Of a DNA stretch of 64,000 bases, positions 6,711 to 28,275 are shown piece by piece. Both the position numbers and the translations under genes were made by a program. Source of the stretch: Paracoccaceae bacterium (GTDB taxonomy: Bacteria; Pseudomonadota; Alphaproteobacteria; Rhodobacterales; Rhodobacteraceae); NCBI GenBank assembly GCA_027486345.1, contig JAIXPH010000030.1, positions 61,564-125,563 on the forward strand, in the 5' to 3' direction. How positions within the stretch are numbered: position 1 is the first letter of the stretch; each line of letters opens with the position of its first letter. The notes under the pieces are model-generated. The model worked only from the letters and a program-made list of their open reading frames with translations. It was not told where the DNA came from and ran no database searches.

Positions 6711-8666
6711 ATGGCCGACGACCTTTTGACCGGCACGGATCAGACCTATGACGCCTCCTCCATCGAGGTGCTCGAAGGGCTGGAGCCTGTCCGCAAGCGC
6801 CCCGGCATGTATATCGGCGGCACCGATGAACGGGCGCTGCATCACCTTGTGGCGGAAATCCTCGACAACTCCATGGACGAGGCGGTGGCGGGTCACGCCA
6901 ACCGGATCGAGGTGGAGTTGCACGCCGACAATTCCGTGACCGTGCGCGACAACGGGCGCGGCATCCCGATTGATCCGCACCCGAAATTCCCCGGCAAATC
7001 GGCGCTGGAGGTGATCCTGTGCACCCTGCACGCGGGCGGCAAGTTCGGCGGCAAGGCCTATCAGACCTCGGGCGGGTTGCATGGCGTGGGCGCTTCGGTC
7101 GTCAACGCGCTGTCGGATGTGATGCGGGTCGAGGTGGCCCGCAACAAGGAGCTGTTCCAGCAATCCTTCTCGCGCGGCATCCCGCAAGGCCCGGTGGAGA
7201 AAATCGGCGCCGCCCCCAATCGGCGGGGCACCACCACGCTGTTCCATCCCGACCCTGAGATTTTCGGCAGCCAGACCTTCAAACCTGCGCGGCTGCTCAA
7301 GATGGTCCGATCCAAGGCCTATCTCTTCTCGGGCGTCGAGATCCGCTGGAAAACCGCCGTCAACGATGGCGAAACCCCGCTGGAGGCGGTGTTCCATTTC
7401 CCCGGCGGCCTCGCGGATTACCTGTCGGACAGCTTGCAAAAGACCACCACCTATGCCGACCGCCCCTTCGCCGGAAAGGTCAGCTTCACGGAAAAATACA
7501 ACGTGCCCGGCTCGGTCGAATGGGCGATCAACTGGACGCCCGCGCGGGACGGGTTCCTGCAATCCTATTGCAACACGGTCCCTACCCCCGAAGGCGGCAC
7601 GCATGAGGCCGGGTTTTGGGCCGCGATCCTGAAAGGCATCCGCGCTTATGGCGATCTGGTCAAGAACCGCAAATCCGAGTTGATCACCCGCGAGGACCTG
7701 CTGACCGGCGGCTGCGCGCTGGTGTCCTGCTTCATCCGCGAGCCGCAATTCGTGGGCCAGACCAAGGACCGGCTGTCAACCGAGGAAGCCGCCAAATGGG
7801 TCGAAGGCGCGGTGCGCGATCACTTTGACAACTGGCTGGCCAATGACACCAAATCGGCTGGCGCGATCCTTGATTTCCTTGTTCTGCGGGCCGAGGAACG
7901 CCTGCGCCGCAAGCAGGAAAAGGAAACCGCCCGCAAGACCGCGACCAAGAAACTGCGCCTGCCCGGCAAGCTGACCGACTGTTCCTCCAAGACCCGCGAG
8001 GGGACGGAACTGTTCATCGTCGAAGGCGACTCGGCGGGGGGATCGGCCAAAGGCGCGCGCGACCGCGAGACGCAGGCGCTGTTGCCGCTGAAGGGCAAGA
8101 TCCTGAACGTGCTGGGCGCGGCCTCGAACAAGCTGAACGACAACAGCGAAATCCGCGATATCTGCGAGGCGCTGGGGGTCCAGATGGGCACCAAGTTCAA
8201 GGTCGATGACCTGCGCTATGACAAGATCATCATCATGACCGACGCCGATGTGGACGGCGCGCATATCGCCAGTCTCTTGATGACCTTCTTCTTCACCCAG
8301 ATGCGGCCCCTGATCGACAAGGGGCACCTCTATCTGGCCTGCCCGCCGCTTTATCGCCTGACCCAGGGGGCGCGGCGGCTCTATGTGGCGGATGATGCCG
8401 AAAAAGAGCTTTGGATGGAAAAGGGTCTGGGCGGCAAGGGCAAGATCGACGTCCAGCGTTTCAAGGGTCTGGGCGAGATGGACGCCAAGGACCTGAAAGA
8501 CACCACAATGAACCCCGCCACCCGCAAGCTGATCCGCGTCAGCATCGACGAGGACGAACCCGGCATGACCGGCGATCTGGTGGAACGCCTGATGGGCAAG
8601 AAACCGGAGTTGCGGTTCCAGTACATTCAGGAAAATGCGCGGTTTGTGGAAGAGTTGGATGTGTGA
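6711..8666 (+). CDS. parE: DNA topoisomerase IV subunit B
   Basis: A 651-residue type IIA topoisomerase ATPase subunit. Topo IV decatenates daughter chromosomes together with ParC, which is not in this window. The GHKL ATPase domain has EILDNSMDEA near residue 48 and the glycine-rich lid GGKAYQTSGGLHGVGASVVNAL near 115-140. The TOPRIM domain shows EGDSAGGSAKGARDRETQALLPLKGK and the metal-binding DADVDGAHI. The C-terminal PxxR-region (QRFKGLGEMDAKDLKDTTMNP) is also intact. Length and the YIGGTDERALHH start favour ParE over GyrB (about 800 residues). Confidence 0.93.
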   Translation: MADDLLTGTDQTYDASSIEVLEGLEPVRKRPGMYIGGTDERALHHLVAEILDNSMDEAVAGHANRIEVELHADNSVTVRDNGRGIPIDPHPKFPGKSALEVILCTLHAGGKFGGKAYQTSGGLHGVGASVVNALSDVMRVEVARNKELFQQSFSRGIPQGPVEKIGAAPNRRGTTTLFHPDPEIFGSQTFKPARLLKMVRSKAYLFSGVEIRWKTAVNDGETPLEAVFHFPGGLADYLSDSLQKTTTYADRPFAGKVSFTEKYNVPGSVEWAINWTPARDGFLQSYCNTVPTPEGGTHEAGFWAAILKGIRAYGDLVKNRKSELITREDLLTGGCALVSCFIREPQFVGQTKDRLSTEEAAKWVEGAVRDHFDNWLANDTKSAGAILDFLVLRAEERLRRKQEKETARKTATKKLRLPGKLTDCSSKTREGTELFIVEGDSAGGSAKGARDRETQALLPLKGKILNVLGAASNKLNDNSEIRDICEALGVQMGTKFKVDDLRYDKIIIMTDADVDGAHIASLLMTFFFTQMRPLIDKGHLYLACPPLYRLTQGARRLYVADDAEKELWMEKGLGGKGKIDVQRFKGLGEMDAKDLKDTTMNPATRKLIRVSIDEDEPGMTGDLVERLMGKKPELRFQYIQENARFVEELDV

Positions 8667-8707
8667 GGGCTGAAAGCCCGACGCGTCTTTTTCTGCCGCA
8701 ACGCTTA

Positions 8708-8822
8708 CCAAGGGGCGCGCACGCACCGCGGGGTGGGTGCACGTATACGTGCGCCCGCCCCGTGGGGGCGGTGCGGGCGCGCCCCGATGCTTTGGGCATC
8801 GGGGCAATCCCAGTCGTTGCGC
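8708..8822 (+). repeat. Covarying double-hairpin repeat, copy 1
   Basis: An approximately 115-bp element between the convergent ends of parE and the EcsC gene. The long hairpin starts with GGGGCGCGC.CGCACCGC, returns as GCGGTGCG.GCGCGCCCC and has a palindromic centre GCACGTATACGTGC. It is followed by a second hairpin (CCCCGATGC/GCATCGGGG, loop TTTGG, sharing stem bases) and the tail CAATCCCAGTCGTTGCG. An inverted copy is at 27100-27215. The stem differs between copies by paired changes that preserve pairing. The rest of this gap (8823-8930) shows only low-complexity GC-rich sequence. Confidence 0.85.
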
Positions 8823-8930
8823 CAAAAAACGCTAACAACCCAACCAATGCCTCAGAACCAGGCCTCCCCTCTCCCCTCGGGGGAGAGGGTTAGGGTGAGG
8901 GGGCGCGATGAACAAGTAACCGACGACAGC

Positions 8931-9713
8931 CTACCCCTTCGGCAGCGCCTTCGCTTTCGCCACCGCCGCGAACTGGGTCATCACCTCTTCCACCCCGTGC
9001 TGTTCGGACAGCCGCAGCAGGGCAAAACGGACGGCGGCGACCTCGCGGTACCAGTGCAGGAAGGCGGCATTCAGCCCGGCCCCGGCGATGGCCCCCAGCA
9101 CCGGCACGGCCTGCGCGGCCAGTTTCTGGCCCAAGGCGGCGGCCAGACGCGGCGCGATGGCGCGGATCATCTGGTTCAGCGCCGGACCCGTCACCGTCAA
9201 CCGCGCCGAAAAGAACGAGGTGTTCACCCCATCATCCGCCGCCAAAGGCGAACCGGCACCGAACACCCGCAGACATTCGGCCTTGATCGCCGGATCATCC
9301 GGATCGAAGCCCGCCGCCCGAGCCTCGCGCCGGATCGCATGAAGGATCACCGTCACCGACACCGGCAATTCGGCCAGCGAGGTCGCAATCCCCCCCGCGC
9401 CCCCCGCCGCACCGGTCAGCATGGCGGCCGCCATCGGACCATTGCGCCCCAGATCCGGCCCCTTGTCGCCCTGCGCGGCCAATCCGAAGGCCACCGACAG
9501 CGCGCGTTCGGTCGCGGCCTCGATCTGTCGTTTCACCCCATCCGGCAGCGCGTCCAGCCGCCCCTCCAGCGTGCCGCCCAGTTTCAGGATCAGGCCCATC
9601 ACCGGACCATTGGCCCGCGTCAGACGCTCGGCCAAGGCGCGCAATTCCGCGCTGCGGTCAGGCGCGGCGATGGCGGGCAGCATCACGGGATCGGCGGGAA
9701 GATCATTGTCCAT
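8931..9713 (-). CDS. EcsC-family protein
   Basis: A 260-residue protein of the EcsC family, named after a Bacillus protein linked to an ABC transporter and secretion; its biochemical role is unknown. The conserved pattern is recognisable in the central small-residue stretch (AAAMLTGAAGGAGGIATSLAELPVSVTVILHAIRREA) and in the later GAIAGAGLNAAFLHWYREVA region. The central segment is hydrophobic enough to associate with membranes. It lies 45 bp downstream of the GNAT gene on the same strand, so the two are probably co-transcribed. Confidence 0.82.
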   Translation of the reverse strand: MDNDLPADPVMLPAIAAPDRSAELRALAERLTRANGPVMGLILKLGGTLEGRLDALPDGVKRQIEAATERALSVAFGLAAQGDKGPDLGRNGPMAAAMLTGAAGGAGGIATSLAELPVSVTVILHAIRREARAAGFDPDDPAIKAECLRVFGAGSPLAADDGVNTSFFSARLTVTGPALNQMIRAIAPRLAAALGQKLAAQAVPVLGAIAGAGLNAAFLHWYREVAAVRFALLRLSEQHGVEEVMTQFAAVAKAKALPKG

Positions 9714-24510: not shown

Positions 24511-25752
24511 ATGACCGCATCCACCGTGTCCAGCTTGGCCAAGTCCGCGCCCGCCGTCCGCGTCCGGCGGCGCAAGATGTTCTACATCCCCGGCTTCGAC
24601 CCCTCGCCCGCCCGCCGCTACCGCGAGATGTACCGCCGCGAGGCCGCGCTGCAAGCCCAGATATCAGGCCATGCTATCCGCCTTGCCCCCGGCAAAAAGC
24701 AGGGCTGGCAGGTCGCCGCCATCATTGATGGGGCCGAGGTCACGGCGGAGGTCGAGGTTCTGGTCTGGTCCGACATCGTCCGCGCCCGCATGCACCACGG
24801 CATCCTTGCGACCTACTGGCAACTCTTGCGCACGGCTTGGATCTACCTCTCCACCGGGGCGCTCTGGCGCGTGCTGCGCCTGCGCAAAGGGCCTGCCATC
24901 GCCATCGGCTATCCGGTGTTTCACCTGCTTTGGCAGCTTGCCGTTGCGCTGGCGGTTGGCTTTGGCCTGTTCTGGGGATTTGCCGCCCTGATCCCCGGCA
25001 TCGCGGGGCAAGGCACTGGGGCCTTGGCAGGCATCGCCGCCTTTGTCGCCCTGCTGCGGCTCTTCAAGCGGCTGGACGGACGGCTCAGGGCGCATTGGCT
25101 GATCCATGACTATGCCTATGCCTCACAGCATCGCGGCGCGCATCCGGCAGAGCTTGAGGCGCGGATGACCGCCTTTGGCGCAGAAATCCGCGCCGCGCTT
25201 GAGACGGAGGTGGATGAGGTGCTGGTGGTCGGCCATTCCTCGGGCGCGATCCTTGCCATCTCCATCCTGTCGGACCTGCTCCGCGCGGGCCTGCCCCCCG
25301 GCCATCCGCCGCTTGGCTTCCTGTCGCTGGGCCAGATGGTGCCCATGCTGTCCTTCCTGCCCGATGCCACCCGCCTGCGGGCCGATCTGAATTTCCTGTC
25401 TCAGCGGGACGAGGTCACATGGATCGACGTCACCGCCCCCGGCGATGGCTGCTGCTTTGCGCTGTGTGACCCGGTCGCCGTCACGGGTGTCGCGCCCGCC
25501 ACGGGCAAGAAATGGCCAGTGGTGATCTCTTGCGCCTTCTCCCAAACCCTCTCGCCCGAAAAATGGCAGGCCTTGCGCTGGCGCTGGTTTGACCTGCATT
25601 TCCAGTATCTCTGCGCCTTTGACCGCCCCGGCGACTATGATTATTTCCGGATCACCGCTGGCCCCTTGACGCTGGCCGACCGCTACCGCGACCGCGCCCC
25701 GTCCAAAAGCCGCATCGAACGGCCCATGTCCGGCTATCGGTCGCTGTCATGA
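24511..25752 (+). CDS. Predicted membrane alpha/beta hydrolase
   Basis: A 413-residue protein with an alpha/beta-hydrolase core. The N-terminal segment (FYIPGFDPSPARRYREMYRRE) resembles the oxyanion-side strand-turn of hydrolases. Two hydrophobic helices span about 130-190 (AIGYPVFHLLWQLAVALAVGFGLFWGF and ALAGIAAFVALLRLF). The nucleophile elbow is G-H-S243-S-G in VLVVGHSSGAILAISIL. The catalytic Asp and His are less clear, though several candidates lie near 300-390. The stop overlaps the P450 start (ATGA, 25749), so the two are translationally coupled and may act on the same membrane-associated substrate. The substrate is unknown. Confidence 0.7.
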   Translation: MTASTVSSLAKSAPAVRVRRRKMFYIPGFDPSPARRYREMYRREAALQAQISGHAIRLAPGKKQGWQVAAIIDGAEVTAEVEVLVWSDIVRARMHHGILATYWQLLRTAWIYLSTGALWRVLRLRKGPAIAIGYPVFHLLWQLAVALAVGFGLFWGFAALIPGIAGQGTGALAGIAAFVALLRLFKRLDGRLRAHWLIHDYAYASQHRGAHPAELEARMTAFGAEIRAALETEVDEVLVVGHSSGAILAISILSDLLRAGLPPGHPPLGFLSLGQMVPMLSFLPDATRLRADLNFLSQRDEVTWIDVTAPGDGCCFALCDPVAVTGVAPATGKKWPVVISCAFSQTLSPEKWQALRWRWFDLHFQYLCAFDRPGDYDYFRITAGPLTLADRYRDRAPSKSRIERPMSGYRSLS

Positions 25753-27089
25753 TCCCGCCGAAACCCACCCCGCGCCCGGACCGCGTGTCGCTGTGGCGCT
25801 ACCTGCGGCTGTTCCGCGCCGATATCCTCTCCGCCCAACCCGCCCGCCTCTATCGCGCGTGGATGGCAGAGTTTCGCACGCCCTTCTTTCGGTCCTACAT
25901 GTGCAACGACCCTGCGCTGGTGAACCGCGTGCTGGTCGAACGCCCCGACGATTTCCCCAAATCCGACCGTATCCGCGAGGGTCTCGCCCCGCTTCTGGGC
26001 AATTCGGTGTTTGTGACGAATGGCGAGGTGTGGAAACGCCAGCGCCGCATCATCGACCCCGCCTTCGAAGGCGGCCGCCTGCGCGACACTTTCCCCGCGA
26101 TCTGGGCGGCGGGAGAGGCCGCTGTCCAACGCCTGCCAGAAGGCGTGGTTGAGGTCGAAGAGGCGATGTCCCACGCCGCCGCCGATGTGATCTTTCGCAC
26201 GCTGTTTTCGATCCCCATCGAGGATGCTGTTGCAACCCGCGTGTTCCACGAATTCCGCGCCTATCAGCGCACCCAGCCCATCCTGAACCTTGCCGCCTTT
26301 TTGCCGCTGCCGCGCTGGGTCCCGCGCCTGCACCGCCGCGCGACCAAGGCCTCTGCCGCCATCATCCGCGACCTGATCCGCCGCCTCACCGAGGCCCGCG
26401 CCGCCCAGATTGCCGCAGGCACCGCGCCCGATGATCTGGCGACCAAGATCATGGTGACCCCGGACCCGGTGACCGGAGAGCGGTTCGGGACCGAGGAAAT
26501 GGTCGATCAGGTCGCCATCTTTTTCCTTGCGGGCCATGAAACCAGCGCGTCGGCCCTGTCTTGGGCGCTTTATCTGCTGGCCACCCACCCAGAGGTGCAA
26601 GAGCAAGTGGCCGCTGAGGCCGTCACGATGACCGCCGATTTCGCCAGCCTGTCGCGCCTGCGCCTGACCCGTGATGTCTTCCGCGAGGCGTTGCGGCTAT
26701 ACCCCCCCGTCCCGATGATGGTGCGCGAGAACACCTGCCCCGAGGTGATGCGCGACCGACCCGTCGCCCCCGGTGCGCAGATCGTGCTGTCGCCTTGGCA
26801 TCTGCACCGGCATGAGCGGGTTTGGGACAATCCTGACCACTTTGACCCCTCGCGATGGCAGACCGAGGCCTGTCGACACGCCGCGCGGGAGGCCTATATC
26901 CCCTTCTCCGCCGGTCCCCGCGTCTGCACTGGGGCAGGCTTTGCGATGGTCGAAGGGCCGCTCTTGCTGGCGCAACTCTGCCGCGCGTTCCGGTTTGAGG
27001 CGATTGCGGGCGATGTGCCGGTCCCGGTGGCGCATCTGACGGTGCGGGCGAAGGAGGGGATCAGGCTAAGGGTGGTGCGGCGGGAATAA
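25749..27089 (+). CDS. Cytochrome P450
   Basis: A 446-residue cytochrome P450. The I-helix oxygen-activation motif is FLAGHETSASALSW near residue 260, the ExxR is in DVFREALRLYPP near 315-325, and the heme-binding loop is FSAGPRVCTGAGFA with C393 as axial ligand. The sequence looks closer to the CYP4/CYP102-like branch (PVPMMVREN, HRHERVWDNPDHFDPSRW) than to CYP101-type enzymes. No redox partner adjoins it. Coupled to the upstream hydrolase by a four-base overlap. Confidence 0.93.
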   Translation: MIPPKPTPRPDRVSLWRYLRLFRADILSAQPARLYRAWMAEFRTPFFRSYMCNDPALVNRVLVERPDDFPKSDRIREGLAPLLGNSVFVTNGEVWKRQRRIIDPAFEGGRLRDTFPAIWAAGEAAVQRLPEGVVEVEEAMSHAAADVIFRTLFSIPIEDAVATRVFHEFRAYQRTQPILNLAAFLPLPRWVPRLHRRATKASAAIIRDLIRRLTEARAAQIAAGTAPDDLATKIMVTPDPVTGERFGTEEMVDQVAIFFLAGHETSASALSWALYLLATHPEVQEQVAAEAVTMTADFASLSRLRLTRDVFREALRLYPPVPMMVRENTCPEVMRDRPVAPGAQIVLSPWHLHRHERVWDNPDHFDPSRWQTEACRHAAREAYIPFSAGPRVCTGAGFAMVEGPLLLAQLCRAFRFEAIAGDVPVPVAHLTVRAKEGIRLRVVRRE

Positions 27090-27099
27090 CTCACCAAAC

Positions 27100-27215
27100 G
27101 CGCAACGAGTGGGATTGCCCCGATGCCCAAAGCATCGGGGCGCGGCCGTCCCGCCCCCCCGGGGCGGCCGCACGTATACGTGCAACCACCCCGGCGGGAC
27201 GACCGCGCCCCTTGG
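27100..27215 (-). repeat. Covarying double-hairpin repeat, copy 2 (inverted)
   Basis: Reverse complement of the element at 8708-8822, again between convergent gene ends (P450 and alcohol dehydrogenase). The tip GCACGTATACGTGC, the CCCCGATGC/GCATCGGGG hairpin, the CCAAGGGGCGCG edge and the TCGTTGCG tail are conserved. The stem changes to GTCCCGCC/GGCGGGAC and CGG/CCG, each change matched on the opposite arm. Confidence 0.85.
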
Positions 27216-27237
27216 CTGGCGTCACACGTCTTATACC

Positions 27238-28275
27238 CTACCCCGCGAAATCCCCGATCACGGCCACCCCCGGCGGCATCGGCGCGTCAAAGGCCCGCAA
27301 CTCGGCCGAGGCCCCCGACAGGGGCACCACCCGCGACACCAGCGCCGAGACATCCACGACGCCCCGCGTGATCAGGTCCAGAAGCGTGGGATACTTCCAC
27401 GCCGGCATCCCGCGCGTGCCGTAGAGCGCCAGTTGCTTCATATAGACCGCGTTCATGTTGATCTCCATCCGCGCGGTATGGCCCGTCGGCAAGCCAACCT
27501 GCACATGGCGGCCTAGTGGGCGCAGACATTCGATCGAGGCATTGGCCGTGGCCTCAATCCCCAGCGCCTCGATCGACACATGGGCCCCGCCCCCCGTCGC
27601 CTCGCGTATGGCCGCCGCCACGTCGCCCTGCCGCGCGTCAAAGGCGAACTCTGCCCCCAAGCCCAAGGCATGGCTCAGCTTTTCCGGCACCACATCCACC
27701 ACCACCACCCGCGCGCCCAAGGCCCGGCCCAGCAGCAGCGCCGACAGCCCGATCCCGCCCGTGCCATGCACCGCGAGCCATTCGCCCGCCCGCAGTTCCG
27801 CCCGCCCGGTTAAGGCATGCCAAGCGGTCGTCACCCGACACCCCAACCCCGCCGCCAGCACGGGCGAAATGCTTTCGGGCAACCGCGCCAGATTATGCGC
27901 GCGGGGAACTGAGATGTATTCGGCATAAGCCCCCGGTTCACCAAAGCCCGGCACACGCTGGCTTTGGCAGATCGTGGTCAGCCCTTGGCGGCATTCCGGG
28001 CAGGTGCCGCAGGACAGGATGAAGGGCGCGATCACGCGGTCGCCCACACGCCACGGCGACAGGGGGCCAGCCTCCACCACCTCGCCGCAATACTCATGGC
28101 CCGGAATGGCACCGGGTTTGACCTTGGGATGTTCGCCGACCCAGCCGTGCCAGTCCGACCGGCAGATGCCGCAGGCCAGCACCTTCAGCACGACGCCATC
28201 GGCTTCGCAGCCCGGATCGGCCACCGTCTCGATGCTCAGATCTTCGCGATAGGCTTTCAGGATGGCGGCGCGCAT
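27238..28275 (-). CDS. Zinc-dependent alcohol dehydrogenase
   Basis: A 345-residue medium-chain dehydrogenase. The catalytic zinc ligands lie in ACGICRSDWHG and GHEYCGEVVEAG. The structural zinc motif CGTCPECRQGLTTIC has four Cys. The Rossmann motif AVHGTGGIGLSALLLG binds NAD(P). Catalysis is oxidation of an alcohol or reduction of an aldehyde/ketone; the substrate is unknown. It may be transcribed alone and converges with the P450 gene across the repeat at 27100. Confidence 0.9.
   Translation of the reverse strand: MRAAILKAYREDLSIETVADPGCEADGVVLKVLACGICRSDWHGWVGEHPKVKPGAIPGHEYCGEVVEAGPLSPWRVGDRVIAPFILSCGTCPECRQGLTTICQSQRVPGFGEPGAYAEYISVPRAHNLARLPESISPVLAAGLGCRVTTAWHALTGRAELRAGEWLAVHGTGGIGLSALLLGRALGARVVVVDVVPEKLSHALGLGAEFAFDARQGDVAAAIREATGGGAHVSIEALGIEATANASIECLRPLGRHVQVGLPTGHTARMEINMNAVYMKQLALYGTRGMPAWKYPTLLDLITRGVVDVSALVSRVVPLSGASAELRAFDAPMPPGVAVIGDFAG

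Follow-up and report, generated by a model that had tools for sequence, protein, structure and literature searches.

A Rhodobacteraceae family of double-hairpin intergenic repeats with recurrent positions and a strand-specific fold

Results

Two double-hairpin copies between convergent genes

The 64,000-nucleotide stretch of DNA analysed here (the window) carries two copies of a double-hairpin element, each located between two convergent genes as described in an earlier note on this sequence. Copy 1, assigned to subtype A, was matched by a covariance model at 8697–8824 on the + strand and starts 30 nt after parE (6711–8666, +), the gene of DNA topoisomerase IV subunit B, which is faced by an unnamed ORF (8931–9713, −). 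Copy 2, assigned to subtype B, was matched at 27098–27226 on the − strand between a P450-like gene (25749–27089, +) and a zinc alcohol dehydrogenase-like gene (27238–28275, −). The gene context was derived with a custom gene caller that used the window as training sequence, and parE is the only one of these four flanking genes that passes its NCBIfam cut-off (TIGR01055).

In both copies the outer stem P1 encloses the inner stem P2, which is tipped by TATA; a G-rich bulge of 5–6 nt lies on the 3′ side, and the second hairpin P3 follows directly. In copy 1 (all on the + strand) the 5′ arm of P1, GGGGCGCGCACGCACCGC, at 8712–8729 is followed by the 5′ arm of P2 at 8730–8743, which contains both U of the conserved U-G pairs (see below), the TATA tip at 8744–8747 embedded in the self-complementary GCACGTATACGTGC, the 3′ arm of P2 at 8748–8761 and the G-rich bulge at 8762–8767, a GGGG/GGGGG-type bulge found again across genera. 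The 3′ arm of P1 occupies 8768–8785 and P3, CCCCGATGC-TTTGG-GCATCGGGG, 8782–8804; the tail CAATCCCAGTCGTTGCGCC at 8805–8823 includes a CGTTGC that is the inverse of GCAACG at 8699–8704, left of the stem. The corresponding segments of copy 2 on the − strand are the 5′ arm of P1 (27193–27211), the inner hairpin P2 (27161–27192, with arms at 27179–27192 and 27161–27174 and the loop at 27175–27178), the bulge GGGGG (27156–27160), the 3′ arm of P1 (27137–27155) and P3 (27118–27140). The terminal CCCC of P1, at 8782–8785 in copy 1 and at 27137–27140 in copy 2, belongs to both the foot of P1 and P3, so that the two helices compete for it (GGGG 5′, CCCC, GGGG 3′).

The features listed in the earlier note (shared edge, GCACGTATACGTGC tip, CCCCGATGC/GCATCGGGG hairpin and TCGTTGCG tail) were all recovered by direct reading of the sequence at both places, and the stem differences between the two copies are indeed paired changes, which holds generally across 28 copies of the genome. 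The second-hairpin pattern occurs twice in the window, whereas 0.00 occurrences are expected from 100 dinucleotide-preserving shuffles, and the folding of the two copies lies far below that of shuffles (z −5.5 and −6.0).

A family dispersed over the genome and over Rhodobacteraceae

Forward and antisense matches together numbered 49 in a BLAST search of the genome with copy 1. With the covariance model R1, for which 28 copies of this genome were used, 74 matches reached E 0.001 or better, and removal of 23 antisense shadows left 51 sites; 44 of these reach E 1e-9 or better, and the weakest few are doubtful. The earlier note, which had made its reading depend on the existence of further copies, is thus supported in this respect. 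About a dozen sites belong to a second subfamily that differs in sequence and has one more hairpin on the left, of 16–19 pairs and with largely copy-specific outer arms (11 copies). Two hybrid copies, L009 and L014, have one arm of each subtype. The motif pair GCAACG/CGTTGC is found at the ends of many copies in this genome and is not visible in other genera.

Within the genus, 8 of 18 other genomes contain matches (10 to 60 each, shadows included) and 10 contain none. The exact P3 motif is also carried by Rhodobacteraceae bacterium PARR1, Rhodobacter sp. H1_MAG_00043 and Rhodobacter amnigenus HSP-20. A broader model, R2, based on 32 copies, matches 135 of 296 Rhodobacteraceae genomes (nearly one genome per genus, 295 genera), four of the 296 having supplied model sequences; the family-wide copy numbers obtained with R2, at 11 candidates scored per genome, are lower bounds. 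In a class-wide sample 4 of 191 genomes match, three of them in Rhodobacteraceae and one (G359) outside. Plasmids and phages gave no match to copy 1. Six representative loci had no Rfam match at E up to 1, and at Rfam gathering cut-offs the whole window yielded only a tRNA. A description of the family was not found in the open PMC literature, where subscription papers are mostly absent, and Rhodobacter-type terms do not occur in PMC11109978 and PMC2267715. The two window copies represent a Rhodobacteraceae-wide family of intergenic repeats built of two hairpins, with a core of about 85 bases, copies of which annotators can label with the covariance model.

A fold maintained on one strand

In the alignment of the 28 copies, which was not fitted to structure, 95.9% of the cells pair and two-sided changes occur at 13 of 38 pairs (70 cells); when the partners are slid by one to three columns, pairing drops to 54% or less. 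Across genera, two-sided changes are found at 24 of 38 pairs in each of the alignments A3 and A4, both fitted to the model, which means that the stems are rewritten but kept. The fraction of paired cells, the numbers of pairs and of cells with two-sided change and the covariation score were each reached by 0 of 500 shuffles in the 28-copy, A3 and A4 alignments. The suggestion that compensatory changes preserve the hairpin as such therefore holds, more covarying pairs have appeared, and the copies keep their pairing as they diverge, its loss being the second outcome that had been named as speaking against the element. The cross-genus consensus reads roughly AAGGGCAGCGCCCG..CCG..GGGGTGGGYG..AA..CGCCCGCCCCGTGGGGGCGG.TCGGGCGCTGCCCGGCG..CGCCGGGCG.

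The paired columns also reveal an asymmetry between the strands. G-T cells outnumber A-C cells in four alignments by 70:6, 71:3, 63:3 and 224:15 (the last comprising 99 copies), and much of the excess is contributed by two or three P1 and P2 columns that remain U-G in different genera. Of 49 copies here, 47 fold better on the + strand, as do 124 of 131 elsewhere, in a test whose alignments were fitted to, or found with, copies already having both U-G columns. Purely double-stranded palindromy would predict G-T and A-C mismatches to be equally common; the G-T excess and the better folding of the + strand thus indicate that constraint acts on the fold of one strand. The fold is kept in a strand-specific manner.

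This result bears directly on the idea that the element is a double-stranded DNA site for a chromosome protein, i.e. a nucleoid or topoisomerase site of the BIME-like kind. Such a site would be orientation-indifferent, intergenic and dispersed as observed, and one recurrent position indeed lies beside parE. We nevertheless consider it very improbable because it predicts equal G-T and A-C mismatches against the 224:15 seen, because the stem sequences change freely and because 161 of the 296 Rhodobacteraceae genomes are without a match (11 candidates scored per genome). The designation REP/BIME-like proposed in the earlier note is appropriate for the kind of intergenic repeat, but a simple palindromic site in double-stranded DNA is disfavoured by the asymmetry between the strands.

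Gene context and orientation

Among 52 matches examined for gene context in this genome, one is located at a contig end; the 51 readable spacers are convergent (23), tandem with the element (16, ++), tandem against it (9, −−) or divergent (3). Compared with 11 convergent pairs among 67 adjacent gene pairs in the window, an enrichment between convergent genes is present here (p 0.0009). It is a preference of this genome but not a rule, as in other genomes 29 of 104 readable spacers (from 131) are convergent (p 0.098), beside 40 tandem against, 32 tandem with and 3 divergent. Divergent spacers are rare, with 3/51 here (p 0.09) and 3/104 elsewhere (p 0.003). The pooled orientation in tandem spacers is 48:49 (p 1.0), and a strand-specific fold without bias to the strand of its neighbours is not easily reconciled with a function in the mRNA of those neighbours.

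A host regulatory or 3′-end element, either a bidirectional terminator or an mRNA-stabilising hairpin between genes, would conform to the very stable fold, the surplus of convergent spacers here (23/51 vs 11/67), the small number of divergent ones and the maintenance of slots across genera. The bidirectional terminator envisaged in the earlier note is not supported by the window copies, neither of which has a terminator-like T-run (0 terminator-like sites). Beside copies, with both sides scanned, terminator-like sites were found in 9/49 and 19/131 cases compared with 4/41 gene 3′ ends, which is no clear enrichment. At the slot of L008, which is empty in the congeneric genome G010, the gene's own intrinsic terminator is kept there, and in this genome (G000) and in G016 the element is placed just after the terminator in opposite directions. 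Together with the unbiased tandem orientation of a strand-specific fold and with whole species of the genus being without matches, these findings make a host element rather improbable. The possibility suggested by L006 and L008 that elements insert beside intrinsic terminators was discarded for the same lack of a clear enrichment of terminator-like sites.

Recurrent positions across genera

For 180 loci we found 159 cross-genome locus pairs that share a flanking protein, 83 of them on both sides, and of these 83 the element has the same orientation in 53 and the opposite one in 30; some small flank clusters (ABC transporters, 45–49% identity) may represent paralogues rather than one locus. The largest group, cysS-cimA (names by NCBIfam), comprises 10 genera with a 3:7 orientation. 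A group in the lepA region also comprises 10 genera (9:1), mostly about 1 kb away, and a group on the 3′ side of parE, which includes copy 1 of the window, comprises 7 genera (6:1); the orientation at the lepA and parE positions is not random.

The cimA position was inspected independently of the element search, in a region chosen as the largest cluster and with fumC as single control locus. Within about 410 nt upstream of cimA an element is present in 11 of 30 genera (6 with cimA, 5 against), or in 9 of 28 when the two genera already known are left out, and in 0 of 30 at the fumC control region (p 0.0003 for 11/30 vs 0/30); across these 30 loci the presence of cysS upstream is presumed. The kilobase downstream of parE carries an element in 6 of 30, including two known beforehand.

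Inside the genus we followed 20 sites of this genome, picked for their element. The orthologous slots are occupied in 15 of 18 readable cases in G010 (9 same, 6 opposite direction) and in 14 of 15 in G016 (9 same, 5 opposite), so that 11 of 29 occupied slots are reversed relative to this genome, and in 0 of 15 in the element-free genome G005. The slot of window copy 2 contains an element of another subtype in the same direction in G016 and an element in the opposite direction in G010. In the latter spacer (L140) the alcohol dehydrogenase-like gene runs at its coding end into the reversed element, from which it seems to obtain the final codons and the stop. Slots without an element show directly adjoining genes at L394, L402 and L405 and another palindromic repeat at some positions.

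This second palindromic repeat, of the type GGGGGGCTGTCTGCCCCCC...CCCCCCGAGGGTATTT..CCAAGATGAAG, was observed in the cysS-cimA spacer of genera without the element, by eye at L398, L403, L410, L411, L413, L414 and L415, three of which are confirmed by a strict pattern; the strict pattern also occurs in 3 of 15 G005 spacers.

Turnover of the copies

Position is shared without a corresponding similarity of the copies. Copies at the same position in different genera have an identity of 0.740 (n=143) compared with 0.731 at different positions (n=7114; p 0.12), whereas copies within one genome reach 0.834 (n=124; p 2e-33), as calculated for 122 of 129 copies with the longer ones left out. Within the genus, orthologous positions show 0.850 (n=21) against 0.850 (n=420), with a mean rank of 10.4 where 11 is expected; here 21 of 31 occupied orthologous pairs were compared, the 10 others involving truncated, interrupted, N-filled or second-subfamily copies. 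Vertical descent of every single copy is therefore not supported, orthologous copies being no more alike than non-orthologous ones both across genera and within the genus. Some copies may have been inherited in place, and six of the 21 orthologous pairs rank among the top 3 of 21 where 3 are expected.

The main rival to mobility assumes long-placed, inherited repeats that are overwritten by gene conversion between copies. Template switching at the near-palindromic arms would reverse copies in place, and palindrome correction would help to keep the arms complementary. The recurrence of positions across genera is in line with this proposal, and the likeness of copies within a genome would be attained by homogenisation without transposition. 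Moreover, a long palindrome offers homology in both orientations, the hybrids L009 and L014 combine one arm per subtype, and the copy-specific yet complementary outer arms in the 11 copies of the second subfamily are as palindrome correction would make them. However, the conserved U-G pairs have not been corrected to perfect palindromes, reversal carries the second hairpin, a part external to the palindrome, over to the opposite side, and the copy number varies from none to dozens inside one genus. We therefore regard gene conversion as unlikely, although it is the strongest of the alternatives.

Discussion

The common view of small intergenic repeats is that they either scatter or stay where they were inherited. 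In the family described here the position is common to genera and the copy and its orientation are not, and the strand-specific fold offers a clue to where selection acts. At a little better than even odds (roughly 55%), we favour the interpretation that the family consists of small non-autonomous mobile elements copied as a folded single strand into recurrent intergenic gaps. The putative intermediate would be the element's own folded strand, as RNA or as single-stranded DNA. Because the fold belongs to this strand whichever way the element faces its neighbours, the constraint would most simply act on its own propagation rather than on a neighbour's mRNA. One slot is probably re-occupied many times and in either direction, since the slot stays while copy and direction change, and gaps at gene ends might be favoured because insertion there does least harm. 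If mobility is correct, a putative mobilisation or exchange system would act across one of the commonest bacterial families.

The conservation of slots across genera is unusual for a mobile element and counts against mobility. As a more daring and rather doubtful scenario we consider an exchange at fixed intergenic docking positions common to the whole family, where copies swap in and out either way, so that inheritance concerns the position and not the sequence or the orientation. The substrate of a putative enzyme would then be the element's own folded strand, and the lifestyle would be unlike that of REP/RAYT systems or TIR-type MITEs.

Traces of classical transposition were searched for in several ways. 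Neither a target-site duplication nor a copy-specific flanking inverted repeat was found above shuffles at 162 loci, a comparison that is insensitive if insertions are old and ends ill-defined, and in which shuffling between loci can reveal copy-specific repeats only and not a shared terminal repeat; flanking direct 5-mers numbered 65 compared with 70.1 (sd 10.2) and 155 compared with 143.5 (sd 17.1) in shuffles. The IS200-type Y1 transposase (PF01797), the sole transposase type searched, is above cut-off in 0 of 19 genomes of the genus; a single match below the threshold is in G009, which has no elements. A clean recent pair of empty and filled sites was not found. Composite elements with a gene between two copies were rejected as well: in G010, two pairs of copies in equal orientation and about 1.08 kb apart have no DNA in common, one spanning a host-type gene, presumably carbamoyltransferase-like, and the other no called gene.

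Comparison with known repeats places the family in a general kind without identifying it. GTAG and CGTC REPs are described in PMC3733652 as single hairpins of 20–40 bp with a GTAG or CGTC tag, the CGTC type being present in alphaproteobacteria with no known dedicated transposase. The family resembles REPs as described there in that its hairpins are intergenic, dispersed and mainly found where genes are in tandem or converge, and it shares with the CGTC type the lack of a known dedicated transposase. It differs in the core of about 85 nt with outer and inner stem, bulge and second hairpin (a 38-pair fold with three helices), and CGTC, the form counted among the tag variants CGTC, TGTC and CCTC, is found in the left 22 nt of just 12 of 180 copies. 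A REP with RAYT was rejected on the basis of the Y1/RAYT count (PF01797) given above.

ERIC and prokaryotic MITEs appear in PMC10969869 as intergenic palindromic repeats of about 100 nt, with QMITE2 reported mostly in 3′ untranslated regions; intergenic location, palindromy and very different copy numbers between relatives are shared according to the same paper, which also cites CIR, a long repeat of an alphaproteobacterium, as strictly intergenic. In contrast to MITEs, terminal repeats with target duplication were not found in our family and the fold is asymmetric and strand-specific. A MITE with target duplication was discarded owing to the lack of an excess of flanking direct 5-mers, and ERIC is set apart by description, not by sequence.

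CIR is named for the CcrM methylation sites, GANTC. A CcrM-type repeat of this sort was rejected, as GANTC is avoided in our family (8 of 180 copies vs 45.6 expected from shuffles). RIME1 of rhizobia, about 108 bp long, consists of two large palindromes and is intergenic; it is similar in size, palindromes and place, a likeness by description only, and its hosts belong to another order. REP, ERIC/MITE, CIR and RIME are of the same general kind, and of their hallmarks the family shows none of those examined, namely tag, length, RAYT, target duplication and GANTC.

Structured RNA motifs of Rhodobacterales form a further group for comparison. According to PMC8632094, HRC-8-4 and uORFC-8-2 have a fixed orientation and are each tied to one operon, the former lying between cco operons with a terminator-like stem and U-run and the latter upstream of cysS. 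They are likewise structured, intergenic and limited to Rhodobacterales, but differ in being single-site and of fixed orientation.

Several minor structures accompany the family. In the second subfamily (L058, L060, L088, L090, L091, L093, L094, L095, L097, L098 and L099) the extra left hairpin adjoins the left side of the element and has a common core, and its differing outer arms still pair, as if one arm had been copied from its partner. L101, L102 (two copies) and L106 are weak model matches with a common left flank of their own (AAGGGGTGTTCAGCA...), two of them 270 bp apart, and possibly form a separate hairpin family. A short hairpin repeat of the type GTGCGCAATGAATGCGCAC, absent from the window, lies at most 250 bp from the element in 4 of 49 copies (L012, L020, L025 and L096). 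A further repeat, GGCCCGGCCACGGGCCGGGCGTTCTTCGCGGAAATCGTCCACTGGACGATTTCTGATCGC, was noticed inside or beside the element at L190 and L206 of G010 and at L191 and L214 of G016, once in the G-rich bulge. In L027 and L028 of this genome and in L184, L196 and L208 of G010, an insert in this bulge forms a further small hairpin, often with GACTC/GAGTC.
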